From: Companilactobacillus allii
GTDB lineage: Bacteria; Bacillota; Bacilli; Lactobacillales; Lactobacillaceae
Reading direction: 5' to 3'
DNA length: 64,000 nucleotides
Assembly (NCBI RefSeq): GCF_001971585.1
Contig: NZ_CP019323.1
Span: forward strand, 734,053 to 798,052
Shown: positions 2,563 to 53,154 of the stretch, piece by piece
Layout: every line of letters begins with the position of its first letter
Numbering within the stretch: position 1 is the stretch's first letter
The notes under the pieces: generated by a model
The model's database searches: none
Seen by the model: only the letters and a program-made list of their open reading frames with translations
Told to the model about the DNA's origin: nothing
Position numbers and translations under genes: made by a program

Positions 2563-2618
2563 GTCCTTTAAAGGTATTATCTACTTAAATCAATATATTG
2601 GTTTTTAGATACAAAATT

Positions 2619-2640
2619 ATTGATATTCCGGAATATCAAT
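2619..2640. promoter_or_regulatory. 22-bp perfect palindrome, candidate NrtR operator of niaP
   Basis: ATTGATATTCC is followed directly by its exact reverse complement, 27 bp before the niaP start. A shorter palindrome, CAATATATTG, sits upstream at 2591-2600. Position between an NrtR-like gene and a niacin permease suggests an operator. Assignment to NrtR is inference. Confidence 0.6.
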
Positions 2641-2666
2641 TAATCATGAAATTAAAGGGGAAAAAC

Positions 2667-3854
2667 ATGCAAGATATGTTGGAGCAAACAGTTACCAAAC
2701 AAGGCAAGAAATTGCTACTTGTAGTAGGAACTGCCTGGTTATTTGATGCGATGGATGTCGCATTATTATCGTTTATTATGCCATTGATCAAAGTACAGTG
2801 GAATTTGTCACCGTCCCAAATTGGGTACGTTAGTTCAGTTACGTCACTTGGTATGGTATTTGGCTCGATTATTTGTGGTTACATGGCGGATAAATTCGGC
2901 CGTAAAAATGTAATGATAGTAACATTGATGGTATTTTCAATTGGAAATTTGCTATTGGCGTTTACAACTAATGTAAATCAATTCATGCTTATTAGATTTA
3001 TCACTGGTATAGGACTTGGTGGTGAACTTCCAGTAGCAGCGACTATGTTGGCTGATAATTTTAAAGGTAAGACTCAAGCCAAGATGCTGATTATGGCTGA
3101 TAGTTTTTGGGCGATCGGTTGGATTCTGGCTTCGGTTATTTCAACGATCATAACACCTATGTATGGTTGGAGAGTGACGGTTATTGTTACTTTCTTTGTA
3201 TCACTATATGCATTTGTTATGCGTCGTCATTTACCAGAAAAGTACGAAAAAAAACCAAAAACTAGCTTGCGTATACAGTTTGCTGGAATATTTAATCAGC
3301 AACATTTAGGTAAAACACTAGCATTCAGCTTTTTATGGTTCGTTGTAATGTTCTCTTATTACGGGATGTTTCTTTGGTTACCAAGTGTCTTGGTAATAAG
3401 AGGCTTCTCTATTATTCATAGTTTTGGTTACACACTATTGATTAGTTTGGCCCAGTTACCCGGCTACTATTTGGCAGCATGGTTGATGGGTAAAATCAGT
3501 CACAAGACAATATTAGTATTTTATTTATTAGGTACTATCGTCAGTGCATTTGTCTTTGGTATAGCGAATAGTGTGCCAGTTTTACTATCCAGTGGAGCCT
3601 TTTTATCCTTCTTTAACCTAGGTGCATGGGGGACATTGATTGCCTTTACACCAAGCCATTTTGCACAAGAGTATCGTGGTATGGGAGTAGGATTCTCACA
3701 ATCAATTGGACGTATCGGAGCTACACTTGGACCTTATCTGATTGGGATATTGATTGGGATGGGATTTGGCATCCCGGTAGTATTTTCAATGTTTGTTGTA
3801 GCACTTATTTTAGGAGTTGTTGTTTTGATCTTTGGAACATCAGAAACATATTAG
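2667..3854 (+). CDS. niaP: MFS niacin (nicotinate) permease, NiaP-like
   Basis: A 12-helix major facilitator protein of 395 residues. The N-terminal GTAWLFDAMDVALLSF segment, the loop GYMADKFGRKN (MFS motif A), GLGGELPVAA, and SFWAIGWILASVIS closely resemble my recollection of NiaP (YceI) of Bacillus. Function would be uptake of nicotinate for NAD salvage. The start ATG 2667 has AAAGGGG six bases upstream; the longer reading from 2598 lacks a ribosome site. The stop TAG at 3852-3854 is also the first triplet of a structured repeat. The NrtR-like neighbour supports the assignment. Confidence 0.75.
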   Translation: MQDMLEQTVTKQGKKLLLVVGTAWLFDAMDVALLSFIMPLIKVQWNLSPSQIGYVSSVTSLGMVFGSIICGYMADKFGRKNVMIVTLMVFSIGNLLLAFTTNVNQFMLIRFITGIGLGGELPVAATMLADNFKGKTQAKMLIMADSFWAIGWILASVISTIITPMYGWRVTVIVTFFVSLYAFVMRRHLPEKYEKKPKTSLRIQFAGIFNQQHLGKTLAFSFLWFVVMFSYYGMFLWLPSVLVIRGFSIIHSFGYTLLISLAQLPGYYLAAWLMGKISHKTILVFYLLGTIVSAFVFGIANSVPVLLSSGAFLSFFNLGAWGTLIAFTPSHFAQEYRGMGVGFSQSIGRIGATLGPYLIGILIGMGFGIPVVFSMFVVALILGVVVLIFGTSETY

Positions 3855-3970
3855 AGCGTAACAACACGCGAATAATTTCCGAGCATTAACTAAAAGGGTT
3901 CTAGTATTCACAAAGTGAATGCTAGAACCCTTTTAATTAAGCGGAAGAAATTGCGTGTTGTTACGCGTTT
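3852..3970 (+). repeat. structured 3' repeat element, copy A
   Basis: The element begins with the niaP stop codon (TAGAGCG) and ends ACGCGTTT. Outer arms GCGTAACAACACGC (3856-3869) and 3953-3966 pair over 14 bp. Next come AATTTCC with GGAAgAAATT, the conserved GAGCA / AGCGG internal loop, a TTAA/TTAA helix, and a long inner stem closing on TTCAC-AAA-GTGAA. It shares sequence with copy B at 52.4 kb and architecture with copies C, D and E. It lies between convergent genes but lacks a typical T tract. Confidence 0.85.
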
Positions 3971-17700: not shown

Positions 17701-17817
17701 AAACGAGATATAAAGACCAAATTTCTGTGCTTGCTACGAATTATGAATGCAACACTTCGTGTCACCTTCATAATCCTAGGCAATGCTCAAAATTTAACCG
17801 GTCTTTCTATCTCTCTA
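17701..17817 (-). repeat. structured 3' repeat element, copy C2
   Basis: Minus-strand copy that begins exactly with the lacB stop codon (TAGAGAGATAG) and ends CTCGTTT, running straight into copy C1. Outer helices AAAGACC/GGTCTTT and AAATTT/AAATTT, loop GAGCA / GCACAG, helix TTGC/GCAA, tip ACAC-GAA-GTGT. The paired bases differ from C1 but pairing is kept. Confidence 0.88.
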
Positions 17818-18327
17818 ATCGTGGTAATATCCTTCATTCCACAACTTCATCTCATGGTCATAGAAGTGTGGGTTATCGTGTTGTTCTGGATTATCTGGTT
17901 CTAGTGCGTCGATCTTTGCAACAAGAGCGTCGTCTTCACCTTTATAATCAGCAGCAAGATAAGTCTTAACGATATCTTCAGCCAAATGTTCACCGACAAC
18001 GGCACCACCGAAGCTAATTACGTTAGCATTTAGGTGTTCCTTTGCATATTTAGCAGTTGTTGTATCGTTAACTAAAGCGGCACGAACTCCTTTGTTCTTG
18101 TCAGCAGCAGTTGAAATACCAACACCTGTACCACAAAGTACAACACCGTAATCGGCTTTTCCATCACGAACTAAGTTAGCAACACGTAGTCCGTATATTG
18201 GATAGTGAGTTCTTGTGTTATCGTATGTACCAACATCGATAACCTCATTACCCATAGCTTTTAACATATCTGAAATTTGCATCTTAACACTTGTGACAAT
18301 ATGGTCGTTTCCTAGTGCAATAATCAT
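17815..18327 (-). CDS. lacB: galactose-6-phosphate isomerase subunit LacB
   Basis: The 170-residue RpiB/LacB-family protein works with LacA to turn galactose 6-phosphate into tagatose 6-phosphate. It begins [16 protein letters not shown] and contains [30 protein letters not shown], the active-site loop with Cys. CAGGAGG precedes ATG 18327. Its stop codon TAG is shared with repeat copy C2. Confidence 0.95.
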
Positions 18328-35697: not shown

Positions 35698-37542
35698 ATG
35701 AGTATCGTTATAGAATATAATTCATTTCAGACAACAAAAAAAGCTCCCTTTGGCGCGGTACTTGAGGGAACTAAAGTGAGATTTCAGATTGGGGTTCACA
35801 CTAATGATTCGATCCAACAGGTGAATTTGCATGTGGCACAAGATGGACATTGGGATTCTGAACACAAAATTCCAATGACTTTAGGAAAAATGCACTATCA
35901 AACTGAATTCACACCGGAGTTTTCAGGTTTATATTTTTATTATTTTGAAGTTGTAACGGATAAGGAAAGTTGCTTTTATGGTTGTACAGATGGTGGATTT
36001 GGTGGAGAAGGAGTGGTCTACTTCCAAAGAAGCGATGTACAAATGTATCAACTGACCGTTATAAATGAAGTAGAAACTATTCCTGAATGGTACCAAAAGG
36101 GATTGGCATACCATATTTTTGTGGACCGTTTTAATAATGGTAATGAAGATGGACACATCAATTCGCCTAAACCTAATAGCTTTATTTACGGACAAAAGAC
36201 TGATTTACCAATGTATATCAGAAATAATAAGCAAGAAGTCGTCCGTTGGGATTTTTATGGTGGCAATTTAATAGGGATTCAGAAGAAAATACCTTATTTA
36301 AAAGAACTTGGAGTGACGATTATATACTTGAGTCCTATATTTGAAGCAAGTAGTAATCATCGTTATGACACCAATGATTATTTCAAAATAGATCCAATGT
36401 TGGGGACACTGGTTGATTTCGATAATCTGGTTACCACCATTCATGAAGCTGGAATGCGTGTGATTTTAGATGGTGTCTTCAACCATGTTGGAGTCAATTC
36501 CAGATATTTTAATAAGTCAGGCGAATACGACACAATTGGTGCGACTCAATCTAAAGACAGTCAATATTTCCCATGGTTCACTTTCACCAATTATCCAAAT
36601 GAATATGACAGCTGGTGGGGTGTGACAGATCTGCCGACAGTTAATAAGAACAATGAAGATTTTCAAAAGTTCATTTATGGTGGCGATAACTCAGTAATTG
36701 ATTATTGGACTTCACGTGGAGTTGATGGTTGGAGATTAGATGTTGCCGATGAATTACCGGATGAATTCATTCTGGGAATTCGGCAAACGCTGAATAAATA
36801 TCCCGATAAAATCTTGATCGGTGAAGTTTGGGAAGATGCCTCGCATAAATTGGCCTATGGCAAACGTCGCCACTATCTTGAAGGTAATATGTTGCAAGCG
36901 GTCATGAATTATCCACTGCGAGAATTGATAATTCGTGTCTTAACTGGAGACTTGAAGCCTTTGGAGTGGTGGCTTGAATTAATGACATTGAAAGAGAATT
37001 ATCCCGATACAGTTTTCAGGTATAATTTTAATAATATAGGAAGCCACGATACACAGCGCATTTTAACTGCGCTACATGGCAATAAAAATTGGTTGAAACA
37101 AGCTGTCGGTTTGTTGTTCACTTTGCCCGGTGTACCTTGTGTTTATTATGGGGATGAGGTGGGACTAACTGGTGGTAAAGATCCTGATAATCGAGCCTTT
37201 TTCCCATGGAATGATCAAGATGAAGATTTATTGAAGTCAGTAAGTCAGTGGTATAACTGGCGAACTAAACATGCATGGATAGATACGGCGGAGTTCGCAC
37301 CGTTTTATCTGAGTGAATATGGAATAGGGTTTGTTTATTGGAGCGGTGATAAGAGGTTGGTAGTTGTTTTGAATACATCTTCCAATCAAGCTTTGATCAA
37401 GGATAACGACTTTATGATGGACGTTGTTCCATCTGAAGTTTCCGTTGAGATACGGGAGTTGTTTAGTGGTGAGGTTGTTGGTGATTTTCAAACCAGAGAG
37501 TGGAAGAAGCCGGAGAGAGTGTCAAAGGACGGGAAACCTTGA
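35698..37542 (+). CDS. GH13 pullulanase/neopullulanase-like alpha-glucosidase
   Basis: An intracellular GH13 enzyme of 614 residues with an N-terminal beta domain (about 1-120), then the barrel: YHIFVDRFNNG, ILDGVFNHVG, the nucleophile in DGWRLDVADE, the acid in LIGEVWED, and IGSHDTQR. It fits the neopullulanase/cyclomaltodextrinase (or amylopullulanase) type that ends glycogen operons of lactobacilli; it would debranch or hydrolyse glycogen. Its last ten or so codons and TGA stop lie inside structured repeat D1, so the C-terminus (ERVSKDGKP) is repeat-derived. Confidence 0.88.
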   Translation: MSIVIEYNSFQTTKKAPFGAVLEGTKVRFQIGVHTNDSIQQVNLHVAQDGHWDSEHKIPMTLGKMHYQTEFTPEFSGLYFYYFEVVTDKESCFYGCTDGGFGGEGVVYFQRSDVQMYQLTVINEVETIPEWYQKGLAYHIFVDRFNNGNEDGHINSPKPNSFIYGQKTDLPMYIRNNKQEVVRWDFYGGNLIGIQKKIPYLKELGVTIIYLSPIFEASSNHRYDTNDYFKIDPMLGTLVDFDNLVTTIHEAGMRVILDGVFNHVGVNSRYFNKSGEYDTIGATQSKDSQYFPWFTFTNYPNEYDSWWGVTDLPTVNKNNEDFQKFIYGGDNSVIDYWTSRGVDGWRLDVADELPDEFILGIRQTLNKYPDKILIGEVWEDASHKLAYGKRRHYLEGNMLQAVMNYPLRELIIRVLTGDLKPLEWWLELMTLKENYPDTVFRYNFNNIGSHDTQRILTALHGNKNWLKQAVGLLFTLPGVPCVYYGDEVGLTGGKDPDNRAFFPWNDQDEDLLKSVSQWYNWRTKHAWIDTAEFAPFYLSEYGIGFVYWSGDKRLVVVLNTSSNQALIKDNDFMMDVVPSEVSVEIRELFSGEVVGDFQTREWKKPERVSKDGKP

Positions 37543-37630
37543 GCATTGCCTAGAATAGTGATTTTACTACGCAGTAGTGAAGTCACCATTCGTAGCAAGC
37601 GCAGAGGTTTGTCCTTTGTAAACTCGTTTC
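37514..37630 (+). repeat. structured 3' repeat element, copy D1
   Basis: Plus-strand copy from AGAGAGTG to CTCGTTTC. Helices CAAAGGAC/GTCCTTTG and AAACCT/AGGTTT, loop GAGCA / GCGCAG, helix TTGC/GCAA and tip CTAC-GCA-GTAG. The pullulanase-like frame enters the element and stops at the TGA embedded in its conserved TTGAGCATT. Confidence 0.87.
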
Positions 37631-37688
37631 CACTCCAATAGAAGATAAATACTATACAAGGTTTTAGGTTTTGAATTTTATCTACAAC

Positions 37689-37723
37689 AAAAAAGACTAG
37701 AGATTAATTTCCCTAGCCTTTTT
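37689..37723. terminator. weak bidirectional terminator
   Basis: AAAAAAG-CTAG and CTAG-CTTTTTT enclose an AT-rich loop, between the D1 and D2 repeats and between convergent genes. The stem is short. Confidence 0.45.
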
Positions 37724-37736
37724 TGATTGTTGTCAT

Positions 37737-37851
37737 AAACGAGTTGCAGAAGCCAGATTCCTGCGCCTGCTACGAATAGTAAATGCATCACTTCGTGATA
37801 CCTTCACTATTCTAGGCAGTGCTCAGAATCTCCCGGCTTCTTCCACTCTCT
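37737..37851 (-). repeat. structured 3' repeat element, copy D2
   Basis: Minus-strand copy, AGAGAGTGG to CTCGTTT. Helices GAAGCC/GGCTTC, AGATTC/GAATCT, loop GAGCA / GCGCAG, helix CTGC/GCAG, AATAGT/ACTATT and tip ATCAC-GAA-GTGAT. Tandem partner of D3 with a 122-bp period. Confidence 0.88.
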
Positions 37852-37857
37852 GGTTTT

Positions 37858-37973
37858 GAAACGAGTTGCAGAAGCCAGATTCCTGTGCCTGCTACGATTA
37901 GTAAATGCACCACTTCGTGGCACCTTCACTAACCTAGGCAGTGCTCAGAATCTCCCGGCTTCTTCCACTCTCT
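37858..37973 (-). repeat. structured 3' repeat element, copy D3
   Basis: Minus-strand copy nearest the peptidase gene. Sequence close to D2 but with changes such as GCACAG for GCGCAG and TTAGT/ACTAA for AATAGT/ACTATT. The peptidase stop reads TAGAGAGTAAACC followed directly by AGAGAGTGG, so the element lies 10-15 bp after the stop. Confidence 0.88.
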
Positions 37974-37983
37974 GGTTTACTCT

Positions 37984-38889
37984 CTAATCCTTGAAATTAC
38001 CACTCTCAACATCTTTAATAAATGTCTTCAAATGATCAAAGTAAACAGGGGCATTATCAATCATATGATGATGACCACCGTTTGGTGTTGTAACTAGTCT
38101 TGCATGAGGGATCTTCTCTTGCATGATCTTAGCTGTTGAAATAGGCATACTTTCGTGTTCACCAAATGTAAGTAGTGTTGGTACTTTGATTTCGTTTAGG
38201 TGTTTTCTAAAGTGCCATTCCTTTAATTTACCAGTGATAACGAATTCGTTGTCTCCTTGGAATGCGTTATATACAGGTGTAGCTGTTGTATCGATCAAGT
38301 GTGAGATAGCAGCTGGTTGTTTCCTATCAATGTATTCTCTGTTCAATACATCAACGTAACTTTGATATGTGGCATCATCAAGGTCATTTTCAGCTTCTTT
38401 TTGTTCCATATACTTAACTTTGTCAGGACCAAGAGCATCCATTCTGCATTGATTGATGCTTGTAACGTATTCGTCAATTTCATCAACCATACTTGAGATG
38501 ATTGCTCCCTTAAGGTGTTGACCATATTTAGCAGCGTACATTTGTACTAAAGCGCCACCCCATGATTGACCGATTAAGTAGAAGTTGTCTAAGCCAAGCT
38601 TTTGTCTAACTTCTTCGACTTCATCAAGGAAGTAGTCATAGCTCAAATACTTTTCAGCAATTTTGGGATCGCTGTAGTCGGGTTGATCTGAGTACCATGA
38701 GCCAAGTTGATCATACATTGATACTTGAACGCCTAAATCGGCAAGTTCTTCACCGAAGTTTTCCCAATATTCGTGATTTCCACCTGGTCCACCGTGTAGG
38801 CAGAGTAGTTGAATATCGCCATGACCTTGGGTATTTGTCCATAAATGGTAGCCATTATCGAGAGTGATAATTGTTGTGCCTTGTTTCAT
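37984..38889 (-). CDS. pip: proline iminopeptidase family alpha/beta hydrolase
   Basis: The 301-residue protein has the oxyanion motif LLCLHGGPGGNHEYW, the nucleophile elbow GQSWGGALVQMYA (Ser near residue 107) and the catalytic His in GGHHHMID. This is the S33 proline-specific peptidase family (PepI/Pip), which removes N-terminal proline from short peptides. AGGAAGGTG precedes ATG 38889. Substrate assigned by family only. Confidence 0.85.
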   Translation of the reverse strand: MKQGTTIITLDNGYHLWTNTQGHGDIQLLCLHGGPGGNHEYWENFGEELADLGVQVSMYDQLGSWYSDQPDYSDPKIAEKYLSYDYFLDEVEEVRQKLGLDNFYLIGQSWGGALVQMYAAKYGQHLKGAIISSMVDEIDEYVTSINQCRMDALGPDKVKYMEQKEAENDLDDATYQSYVDVLNREYIDRKQPAAISHLIDTTATPVYNAFQGDNEFVITGKLKEWHFRKHLNEIKVPTLLTFGEHESMPISTAKIMQEKIPHARLVTTPNGGHHHMIDNAPVYFDHLKTFIKDVESGNFKD

Positions 38890-41021: not shown

Positions 41022-41252
41022 ATGGCAAAAGTAGTATTACAATTAGGCGAATTAACATGCCCATCATGTATGACAAAAATTCAAAAAGCAGTTTCAAATC
41101 AAGACGGAGTTTCAGATGTAAAAGTTATGTTCAATGCAGGTAAAGTTAAGGCTGACATTGATGAAGCAAAAGTAAGTGGTGAAGATCTAGGTAAAGTTAT
41201 CACTGAACTAGGATATGAAGTTAAAAAGATCAAGACAAAGGAGATTGCATAA
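41022..41252 (+). CDS. heavy-metal-associated (HMA) domain metallochaperone
   Basis: A single HMA domain of 76 residues with metal-binding motif LTCPSCMTKI (Cys13, Cys16) and the family beta-alpha-beta-beta-alpha-beta pattern (VKVMFNAGKVKADID). It resembles CopZ-type chaperones, though CPSC replaces the common CxxC with M. It probably hands metal to the upstream ATPase, which lacks its own HMA domain. AGGAGG ribosome site; its stop overlaps the dps start (TAATG). Confidence 0.87.
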   Translation: MAKVVLQLGELTCPSCMTKIQKAVSNQDGVSDVKVMFNAGKVKADIDEAKVSGEDLGKVITELGYEVKKIKTKEIA

Positions 41253-41806
41253 TGACAGAGCTAACAATTGATGAAAAATTCGAGGCAGAACAAAAACAAG
41301 CCGACGCCGATCACCACAAACCAACAGCCGGTGCAATGACAGGACACATTGTTTCCAATCATGCATATATCAATATCAAGTTGCATCAACTAAAGTGGTT
41401 CGTTAAAGGACCAAACGCTGAAAGCTACAAGTCAGTTTTGAATGATACAATCGATGAGAATAACGCATGGTTCGATAAAGTAGCCGAACAATTGTTGGAC
41501 GAAGGCGAGTTGCCACCATCAACAATGAAAGAATATACAGATTACACAATGATCGAAGAAAACGGTGCTAATAAGTACTTGAATGCTCAAGACATGATTC
41601 AAACAGTTGTAAATGACTTTGCAACTGATAACATGTTTATAACAAGAGCAATCAAACTAGCCCAAAACGAAGATCGCCCATTCATGGCTCAAGTACTAGT
41701 AGAGTTACTAGGCTGGAATAATCATCAAATTAGAATCTATCAAGCATTACTTGGTAATAGTGCACGTGTTGGATTTGAAGAAGATGATGAGGACGACGAA
41801 GACTAG
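41252..41806 (+). CDS. dps: Dps/ferritin-like DNA-protection protein
   Basis: A four-helix ferritin-like protein of 184 residues with SNHAYINIKLHQLKWFVKGPNA, ENNAWFDKVAEQLLDEGELPPSTMKEY and a LLGWNNHQIRIYQALLG C-terminal helix. Dps proteins oxidise and store iron and protect DNA from peroxide. It has a long, strongly acidic tail (EEDDEDDED). Translationally coupled to the HMA gene. Its TAG stop is the first triplet of repeat E1. Confidence 0.85.
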   Translation: MTELTIDEKFEAEQKQADADHHKPTAGAMTGHIVSNHAYINIKLHQLKWFVKGPNAESYKSVLNDTIDENNAWFDKVAEQLLDEGELPPSTMKEYTDYTMIEENGANKYLNAQDMIQTVVNDFATDNMFITRAIKLAQNEDRPFMAQVLVELLGWNNHQIRIYQALLGNSARVGFEEDDEDDED

Positions 41807-41923
41807 AGAGTGCAGGAAGGGTGCCCAGACTCTGAGCATTACCTAGATAAGTATCATTATCACGAAGTGATGATGGAACTTATCGTAGTAAGCACAGGAG
41901 TCTACCCTTCCGGAACTCGTTTC
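41804..41923 (+). repeat. structured 3' repeat element, copy E1
   Basis: Starts with the dps stop codon (TAGAGAGTG) and ends CTCGTTTC. Helices GGAAGGGT/ACCCTTCC and AGACTC/GAGTCT, loop GAGCA / GCACAG, helix TTAC/GTAA, GATAAGT/ACTTATC, tip ATCAC-GAA-GTGAT. Confidence 0.9.
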
Positions 41924-41934
41924 AGAAGTAAAAA

Positions 41935-42053
41935 AGAGAGTGCAGGGAAGGTGCCCAGACTCTGAGCATTACCTAGATAAGTATCATTATCACGAAGTGA
42001 TGATGGAACTTATCGTAGTAAGCACAGGAGTCTACCCTTCCGGAACTCGTTTC
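41935..42053 (+). repeat. structured 3' repeat element, copy E2
   Basis: Near-identical tandem copy of E1, offset by 130 bp. It differs mainly by GCAGGGAAGGTG instead of GCAGGAAGGGTG, which slightly weakens the outer helix. Confidence 0.9.
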
Positions 42054-52397: not shown

Positions 52398-52518
52398 GGA
52401 AACGCGTTCCAAAACACAATTTCTTCCGCTTAACGTAATATGGGGCGTCATTCACATTCGTGAATGGCACCCCATATTATGTTAATGCTCGGAAATTCCC
52501 GTGCTTTTGTGCGCTCTA
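52398..52518 (-). repeat. structured 3' repeat element, copy B
   Basis: On the minus strand it begins with the stop codon of the GPP34-like gene (TAGAGCGCA) and ends ACGCGTTTCC. It shares AATTTCCGAGCATTAAC and TTAAGCGGAAGAAATTG with copy A. The long inner stem (ATAATATGGGG.../...CCCCATATTA) has a different sequence from copy A but the same tip ATTCAC...GTGAAT. Confidence 0.87.
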
Positions 52519-53154
52519 TCCTAATAGTGTCAGAATAACTCGATTCAATCTCTTAGATAACTCAAACAACTTCTCATAGGTTGGGTCATCTTGGTTTTCT
52601 TCGATATTGGATTTTAGCTGTTTCAATTCGAATGGTGTGAAATATGTCTTCAAGTCGTGACTTCCATAAAGGGTCGTCAAAAGAGCGAATGTTTCAGGTG
52701 AAACTTTACTTCCTGAATTCAAGAACTCTTTTCTAACGTCACTAACTAGGTCTTCTTTGACACGATGGTCTGGAAGGTAATTGTTAGTCTTAAAAACTAC
52801 ACCCGTTACAGCTTTTGTAACGTCGACTTTATTAACTAGTGAGTCGCCGATTTCGTTGTAGATCTGTTTGGTGATATTTTCTTTTGTTGCCATGGCACGA
52901 AGTACGTGTGTAACGCTTTTTCCTTGGTTTTTGTTGATGATTTGGAAGAATTCATTGAGATATTCTTTATCATCTGGTAAAACCTTGTTAATGATGACAC
53001 TGTTGTCAGTAAGATCGATAATATCGTTTAAAGCCAAGTCGAAAAAAGAACTTTCAGCCAAATACGCTCTACGTCTAGTGTTCTTAAATACTCGTACACT
53101 GCCTTTTTCATTGCACGATAAAATAAAATATTTTTGAGGAATATTTAAATTCAT
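52516..53154 (-). CDS. GPP34-like (Golgi phosphoprotein 3 fold) protein, tentative
   Basis: A soluble helical protein of 212 residues. The N-terminal YFILSCNEKGSV...RAYLAESSFFDLALNDIIDLTDNSVIINKVLPDD and a later SPETFALLTTLYGSHDLKTYFTPFELKQL fit the GPP34 pattern of a strand-turn start followed by a helical bundle that binds phosphoinositides in eukaryotes. The bacterial role is unknown. AAAAGGAG precedes ATG 53154; it follows the SGNH hydrolase gene by 12 bp, so the two form an operon. Confidence 0.55.
   Translation of the reverse strand: MNLNIPQKYFILSCNEKGSVRVFKNTRRRAYLAESSFFDLALNDIIDLTDNSVIINKVLPDDKEYLNEFFQIINKNQGKSVTHVLRAMATKENITKQIYNEIGDSLVNKVDVTKAVTGVVFKTNNYLPDHRVKEDLVSDVRKEFLNSGSKVSPETFALLTTLYGSHDLKTYFTPFELKQLKSNIEENQDDPTYEKLFELSKRLNRVILTLLG

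Follow-up and report, generated by a model that had tools for sequence, protein, structure and literature searches.

A dispersed hairpin at stop codons, often in the place of intrinsic terminators, in Companilactobacillus allii

Nine hairpins and their genes in a 64-kb window

The window, the 64-kb stretch of the Companilactobacillus allii genome analysed here, holds exactly nine copies of a structured repeat according to a covariance-model scan (Table 1; copy C2 is missing from one of our copy tables, probably owing to a two-base overlap with C1). The initial annotation had named all nine, and each is real and folds as one long imperfect hairpin with a predicted energy of -45 to -65 kcal/mol. 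What had been missed is that the element is located at stop codons. The TAGAG end described for the repeat is correct as a sequence, but its TAG is usually the stop codon of the neighboring gene. Similarly, the statement that no ORF lies inside the repeat has to be amended, as the amylase-like gene (35698..37542) runs 29 nt into D1 and several genes elsewhere in the genome end inside the element.

Table 1. Copies of the element, remnants and a retained terminator in the window
Feature	Coordinates	Strand	Context
Copy A	3852..3970	+	Directly 3' of MFS transporter gene (2598..3854), whose stop codon is the TAG of the copy
Copy C1	17584..17700	-	Head to tail with C2, abutting; upstream of pfkB-like gene
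Copy C2	17701..17817	-	Leads tandem pair; TAG is the stop of LacAB/RpiB-like gene (17815..18327)
Stub, 20 nt, of older copy (CAGAGAGTGGAAGAAGCCGG)	37494..37513	+	Immediately upstream of D1
Copy D1	37514..37630	+	End of alpha-amylase-like gene; the gene's frame now stops within the element
Bidirectional intrinsic terminator (AAAAAAGACTAGAG..CCTAGCCTTTTTTG)	37688..37725		Retained between D1 and D2; read from sequence, relatives compared
Copy D2	37737..37851	-	Second member of tandem pair
Copy D3	37858..37973	-	3' of alpha/beta hydrolase gene (37984..38889)
Stub, 8 nt, of older copy (TAGAGAGT)	37979..37986	-	TAG is the stop of the hydrolase gene
Copy E1	41804..41923	+	TAG is the stop of ferritin/Dps-like gene (41252..41806)
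Copy E2	41935..42053	+	Arose by recent tandem duplication of E1 (98% identity)
Copy B	52398..52518	-	TAG is the stop of GPP34-domain gene (52516..53154)

Structure, covariation and distribution of the family

When the nine window copies were aligned with MAFFT, the element emerged as a single unbroken hairpin, 115-120 nt long, with 41 pairs, 28 of which show compensatory change. The impression that the stems vary in sequence while staying paired was borne out on 132 copies: (i) 95.8% of pair cells hold standard pairs, compared with 70.4% after shuffling; (ii) double changes number 1287, compared with 341 in shuffles; (iii) both sides vary while pairing is kept at 38 of the 41 pairs and (iv) sliding the partner columns drops pairing to 36-50%. 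The constant parts are also as first described, with AGAG at the 5' end in 129-131 of 132 copies, CGTTT at the 3' end in 127-131 of 132, and a near-invariant asymmetric internal loop in which GAGCA lies opposite GCRCAG or GCGGAAG. On the sense strand there are 201 G.U pairs versus 73 A.C mismatches (one doubtful pair omitted), an excess that favors folding of the sense strand. Subfamily tails occur behind CGTTT: a small hairpin, GCGAAGCAAAC, in 29 of 129 copies and a GCAAGTTTGAG-like stretch in 28 of 129.

The ferritin/Dps stop (the E1 site) allows the hairpin to be followed at a single place. Seven relatives also bear the element there, and among the resulting eight species the sequences differ widely, with compensatory change in 23 of the 41 predicted pairs. 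This comparison fits long-term upkeep of the hairpin at one site, to which exchange between copies could contribute. Covariation might also come about through template switching that perfects imperfect palindromes, with no selection for structure. Long hairpins are known substrates of such quasi-palindrome correction, and partial tandem duplications of 3' parts of the element suggest that replication slips do occur here. Correction would, however, erase both the internal loop and the mismatch between the AGAG and CGTTT ends, which are kept in nearly all copies, and the preference for G.U over A.C on the sense strand also speaks against it; we find this explanation scarcely credible.

Searched with a covariance model built from the nine copies, the 2.53-Mb genome yields approximately 134, almost all of them at E < 1e-8. 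The nine thus belong to a large family, far beyond chance. Our genome-wide analyses draw on 40 stretches plus the window, which together hold 129 of the approximately 134 copies. Within Companilactobacillus, 35 of 36 genomes carry between 2 and over 100 copies each; the sole genome without a copy (G019, 1.5 Mb) is also the smallest. Among Lactobacillaceae, copies are present in 106 of 251 genomes and in 19 of 40 sampled genera. A few diverged copies are found in other Lactobacillales families, and a class-wide genome sample yielded no additional ones. In four of these outlying loci (L155, L156, L157 and L158) the AGAG/GTTT ends and the outer stem are kept and the internal loops are quite different, which suggests a wider superfamily. 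In C. allii, GC skew places the replication origin near 0.6 Mb and copies are denser towards it. The terminus half is depleted of copies, which are sparse from about 1.5 to 2.3 Mb, and the complete genomes G034 and G010 show a similar unevenness.

No named RNA family had been recognized at the outset, and this is also the outcome of our searches. At or above the Rfam 15 gathering thresholds, the window gave only a tRNA and 20 element loci from other genera and families gave no match; a permissive scan of the D region returned merely unrelated weak matches below gathering. No description of the element was found in open-licence full-text literature; a subscription journal may carry one. Distant-mode blastn searches of plasmid records with D2 and A, and of phage records with D2, returned no match.

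Position at stop codons and exchange with intrinsic terminators

The element starts at a stop codon, in most cases no more than about 13 nt away, and points in the same direction as the gene. We scored position by asking for an ORF of at least 90 aa with its stop -20 to +38 nt from the 5' end of the lead copy. A sense ORF stop lies in this interval for 96 of 113 lead copies; 89 of the 96 have a sense stop only, 7 have stops on both strands and none has an antisense stop only. In the commonest arrangement (35 copies), the stop is TAG and its AG is common to gene and element. Placement at stop codons is also seen outside the genus, in many copies of other genera and several in other Lactobacillales families, and by an ORF-based rule it applies to 18 of 28 loci from other genera or families. 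The element rarely occurs at tight operon junctions, which make up 1 of 40 co-directional ends that bear it and 108 of 206 controls. At five copies (841066, 843356, 914545, 942151 and 1352201), genes enter the element for 7-8 codons and end at an internal TAA; each such protein gains a short C-terminal tail encoded by the element.

Folded, sense-oriented sites with variable stems at stop codons are also a feature of integron attC sites, and we considered whether the element could be an attC-like site recombined as a folded strand by a tyrosine recombinase. Its topology, position, orientation and tandem arrays do resemble attC. We nevertheless regard this as very improbable because the AGAG...CGTTT ends do not give the boxes RYYYAAC/GTTRRRY, the copies are dispersed, mostly single, at ordinary chromosomal genes with no cassette array, and the neighboring genes do not move along with the element.

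Comparison with relatives revealed that the element frequently occupies the place of an intrinsic terminator. A random sample of 22 gene ends was taken from copies outside the window and compared with three relatives, usable orthologues being available for 20. Of 46 orthologues lacking the element, 40 have a terminator, whereas in C. allii a terminator-like signal lies behind the element at 8 of 22 ends (p = 4e-5); several of these eight signals are weak, and a second copy contains at least one of them (that of site 13). Terminators were called with a home-made folding rule whose sensitivity is limited, and the count in C. allii is 3 of 22 with strict settings and 8 of 22 with looser ones. The same difference is seen within the genome, where a terminator follows 20 of 91 element-bearing gene ends versus 90 of 171 control ends (p = 2e-6), the controls being gene ends without the element where the next gene is 60 nt or more away. 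With a stricter detector the numbers are 10 of 91 and 66 of 171.

Individual sites illustrate the exchange. At site B, Companilactobacillus allii has the element and no terminator, whereas in hulinensis, jidongensis, nodensis and insicii the stop is followed immediately by an intrinsic terminator. At three of the sampled sites (2, 12 and 18), similarity to at least one relative picks up again 45-83 nt past that relative's stop, just beyond its terminator; everything in C. allii between the stop and that point is different. Replacement, although frequent, has exceptions: the elements at sites D and E still have a terminator behind them. In relatives, some copies (L039, L043 and L148) sit directly behind a T-tract resembling the end of a terminator and seemingly do not replace one.

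The closeness of the element to the stop raises the possibility that the hairpin works at or just behind translation termination, for instance through ribosome stalling, ribosome release or stop-codon effects, with any effect on terminators being secondary. As the stem starts at or a few nucleotides behind the stop, its base would be in contact with a terminating ribosome, and in the 35 copies noted above the stop codon itself is shared. In E. coli, REP elements are reported no more than about 15 nt from stop codons and offer an analogue. However, the intrinsic terminators of relatives often begin 0-30 nt behind the stop, nearly as close as the element does, so that replacement explains the element's distance from the stop. 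Since the absence of terminators is also left unexplained, we consider a primary role in translation termination improbable.

The element itself is no standard terminator, given that it lacks a proper U-tract: the first 5 nt contain 3-4 T, and only 3 of 126 copies reach six or more T within 8 nt. A search for the RNA-binding domain of Rho did not detect it in any of 36 Companilactobacillus genomes; the same search was positive in Lactococcus and Bacillus.

Proposed role in mRNA 3'-end formation and mode of spread

The initial annotation had seen a dense, dispersed, structured family, and this holds, with strong covariation, no Rfam match and many further copies in the genome and in relatives, the outcome that it had set as its own check. 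That the element is a stand-alone non-coding RNA, or serves in processing, is not established. A fixed, sense-oriented place at stop codons, together with exchange for intrinsic terminators, points to an mRNA 3'-end element. We favor the possibility, with a probability of roughly 0.55, that the repeat is a mobile or once-mobile RNA hairpin of mRNA 3' UTRs that supplants intrinsic terminators and takes over the formation or protection of 3' ends. Our reasoning starts from dispersal, position, orientation, replacement and covariation, all of which are demonstrated by sequence comparison, and from the fact that Rho was not detected in the genus; from these we infer that the hairpin forms or protects the mRNA 3' end. 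In such a scenario a strand-specific hairpin would spread from gene to gene and occupy the place of the intrinsic (Rho-independent) terminator. The hairpin could then pause or stop the polymerase despite being followed by GUUU alone and no real U-tract, or nuclease action (by RNase III, for example) might trim or cut it down to a stable base. Recognition would rest on the conserved asymmetric internal loop.

A bolder and more tentative version is that the element represents a new class of mRNA 3' end, in which a long, looped hairpin with no U-tract ends or seals transcripts without Rho and replaces terminators across the Lactobacillaceae. Under this version, 3'-end signals would themselves act as mobile elements. 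Were our proposal correct, about 100 genes of one bacterium would have exchanged an ordinary terminator for a single family of mobile hairpins, in a genus with no Rho detected. This would offer a natural experiment on two questions: how a cell lacking Rho ends and protects its mRNAs, and how a regulatory part passes between genes. The covariance model lets annotators find a repeat that lies outside any Rfam family in an industrially used family of bacteria.

Near-identical copies are present at unrelated loci, with identity beginning sharply at AGAG and ending at CGTTT or continuing into a tail. The flanking genes do not travel with the element, its presence at orthologous sites varies between species, and stubs such as TAGAGAGT mark apparent lost copies. 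The termini are imperfectly inverted (AGAGNGN / NCNCGTTT). Among the dispersed copies available, which did not include a fresh insertion paired with an intact empty site, no target-site duplication was visible in the flanks.

These properties are also what one would expect of a selfish DNA element that lands on terminator hairpins or gene ends and destroys them without benefit to the host, the hairpin being conserved solely for the needs of a mobility enzyme. Sharp borders, near-identical dispersed copies, copy numbers from 0 to over 100 among related species, terminators lost at insertion sites and the decay of old copies into stubs are all in keeping with this, and EFAR is a precedent. Missing terminators could be insertion damage, or insertion may favor genes that are able to do without one. 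A selfish element would thus account for terminator loss, but it does not account for the strict orientation or for the constraint at one orthologous site: sense orientation is unexpected when the target is a nearly symmetric hairpin, pairing has been kept by compensatory change at the ferritin/Dps stop in eight species, and there is an excess of G.U on the sense strand. In addition, no transposase or other driver was identified, and the plasmid searches with D2 and A and the phage search with D2 were empty. On balance we judge a purely selfish origin, the main alternative, rather unlikely.

Precedent by mechanism is closest in EFAR/Efa-1 of Enterococcus faecalis. EFAR is reported, in work by Venditti et al. 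from 2007, to integrate at short stem-loops and to delete most of each. Both are dispersed palindromic intergenic repeats of Lactobacillales, and the loss of the terminator hairpin at orthologous sites of our element parallels the stem-loop loss reported for EFAR. As described, the two differ in build: ours is a single long hairpin that keeps its asymmetric loop, always has the sense orientation and sits at stop codons. Efa-1 is an adjacent pair of stem-loops of 163 bp (PMC2267715), and EFAR is counted among the MITE families (PMC3733652). Other MITEs (bcr1, RUP and ERIC) are likewise non-coding, dispersed, structured and evolutionarily mobile, but the present element shows only imperfect terminal inverted repeats and is fixed in orientation and position relative to genes. 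Intrinsic terminators share with the element a sense hairpin directly 3' of the gene and mutual replacement at orthologous sites; they differ in that the element has 41 pairs, only GUUU behind them, a conserved internal loop and a dispersed sequence family.

Two further systems were considered and rejected. REP/REPIN sequences, with their RAYT transposases, are likewise short, palindromic, numerous and extragenic, and many sit at the 3' ends of genes. REPs are 20-40 nt long and carry a GTAG or CGTC tag (PMC3733652), whereas the element is 115-120 nt with AGAG/CGTTT ends and its copy number is not tracked by Y1 transposases. Integron attC was dismissed since attC boxes and cassette arrays are absent and the copies are scattered at ordinary chromosomal genes. 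No Rfam family, and no open-licence paper that we found, describes the element.

With regard to candidate drivers, a Y1 transposase was rejected because PF01797 is absent from G012, G024, G032 and G034, genomes with 82-101 copies. A reverse transcriptase, a candidate prompted by sense orientation and 5'-truncated copies, was also rejected; none is present in this genome and there is no tracking of copy number.

The 5'-truncated copies form a recurrent pattern. A second copy minus its 5' part trails 31 of 129 copies (for example at 298964, 631850, 923649 and 1327790). The 3' end and tail of these second copies are intact, and they are often 100% identical to their neighbor. Judged from their sequences, the 3' part and its tail have been duplicated locally in tandem, as might arise by replication slippage at the hairpin. 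Remnants of the 5' type are rare; the four that we found are located upstream.
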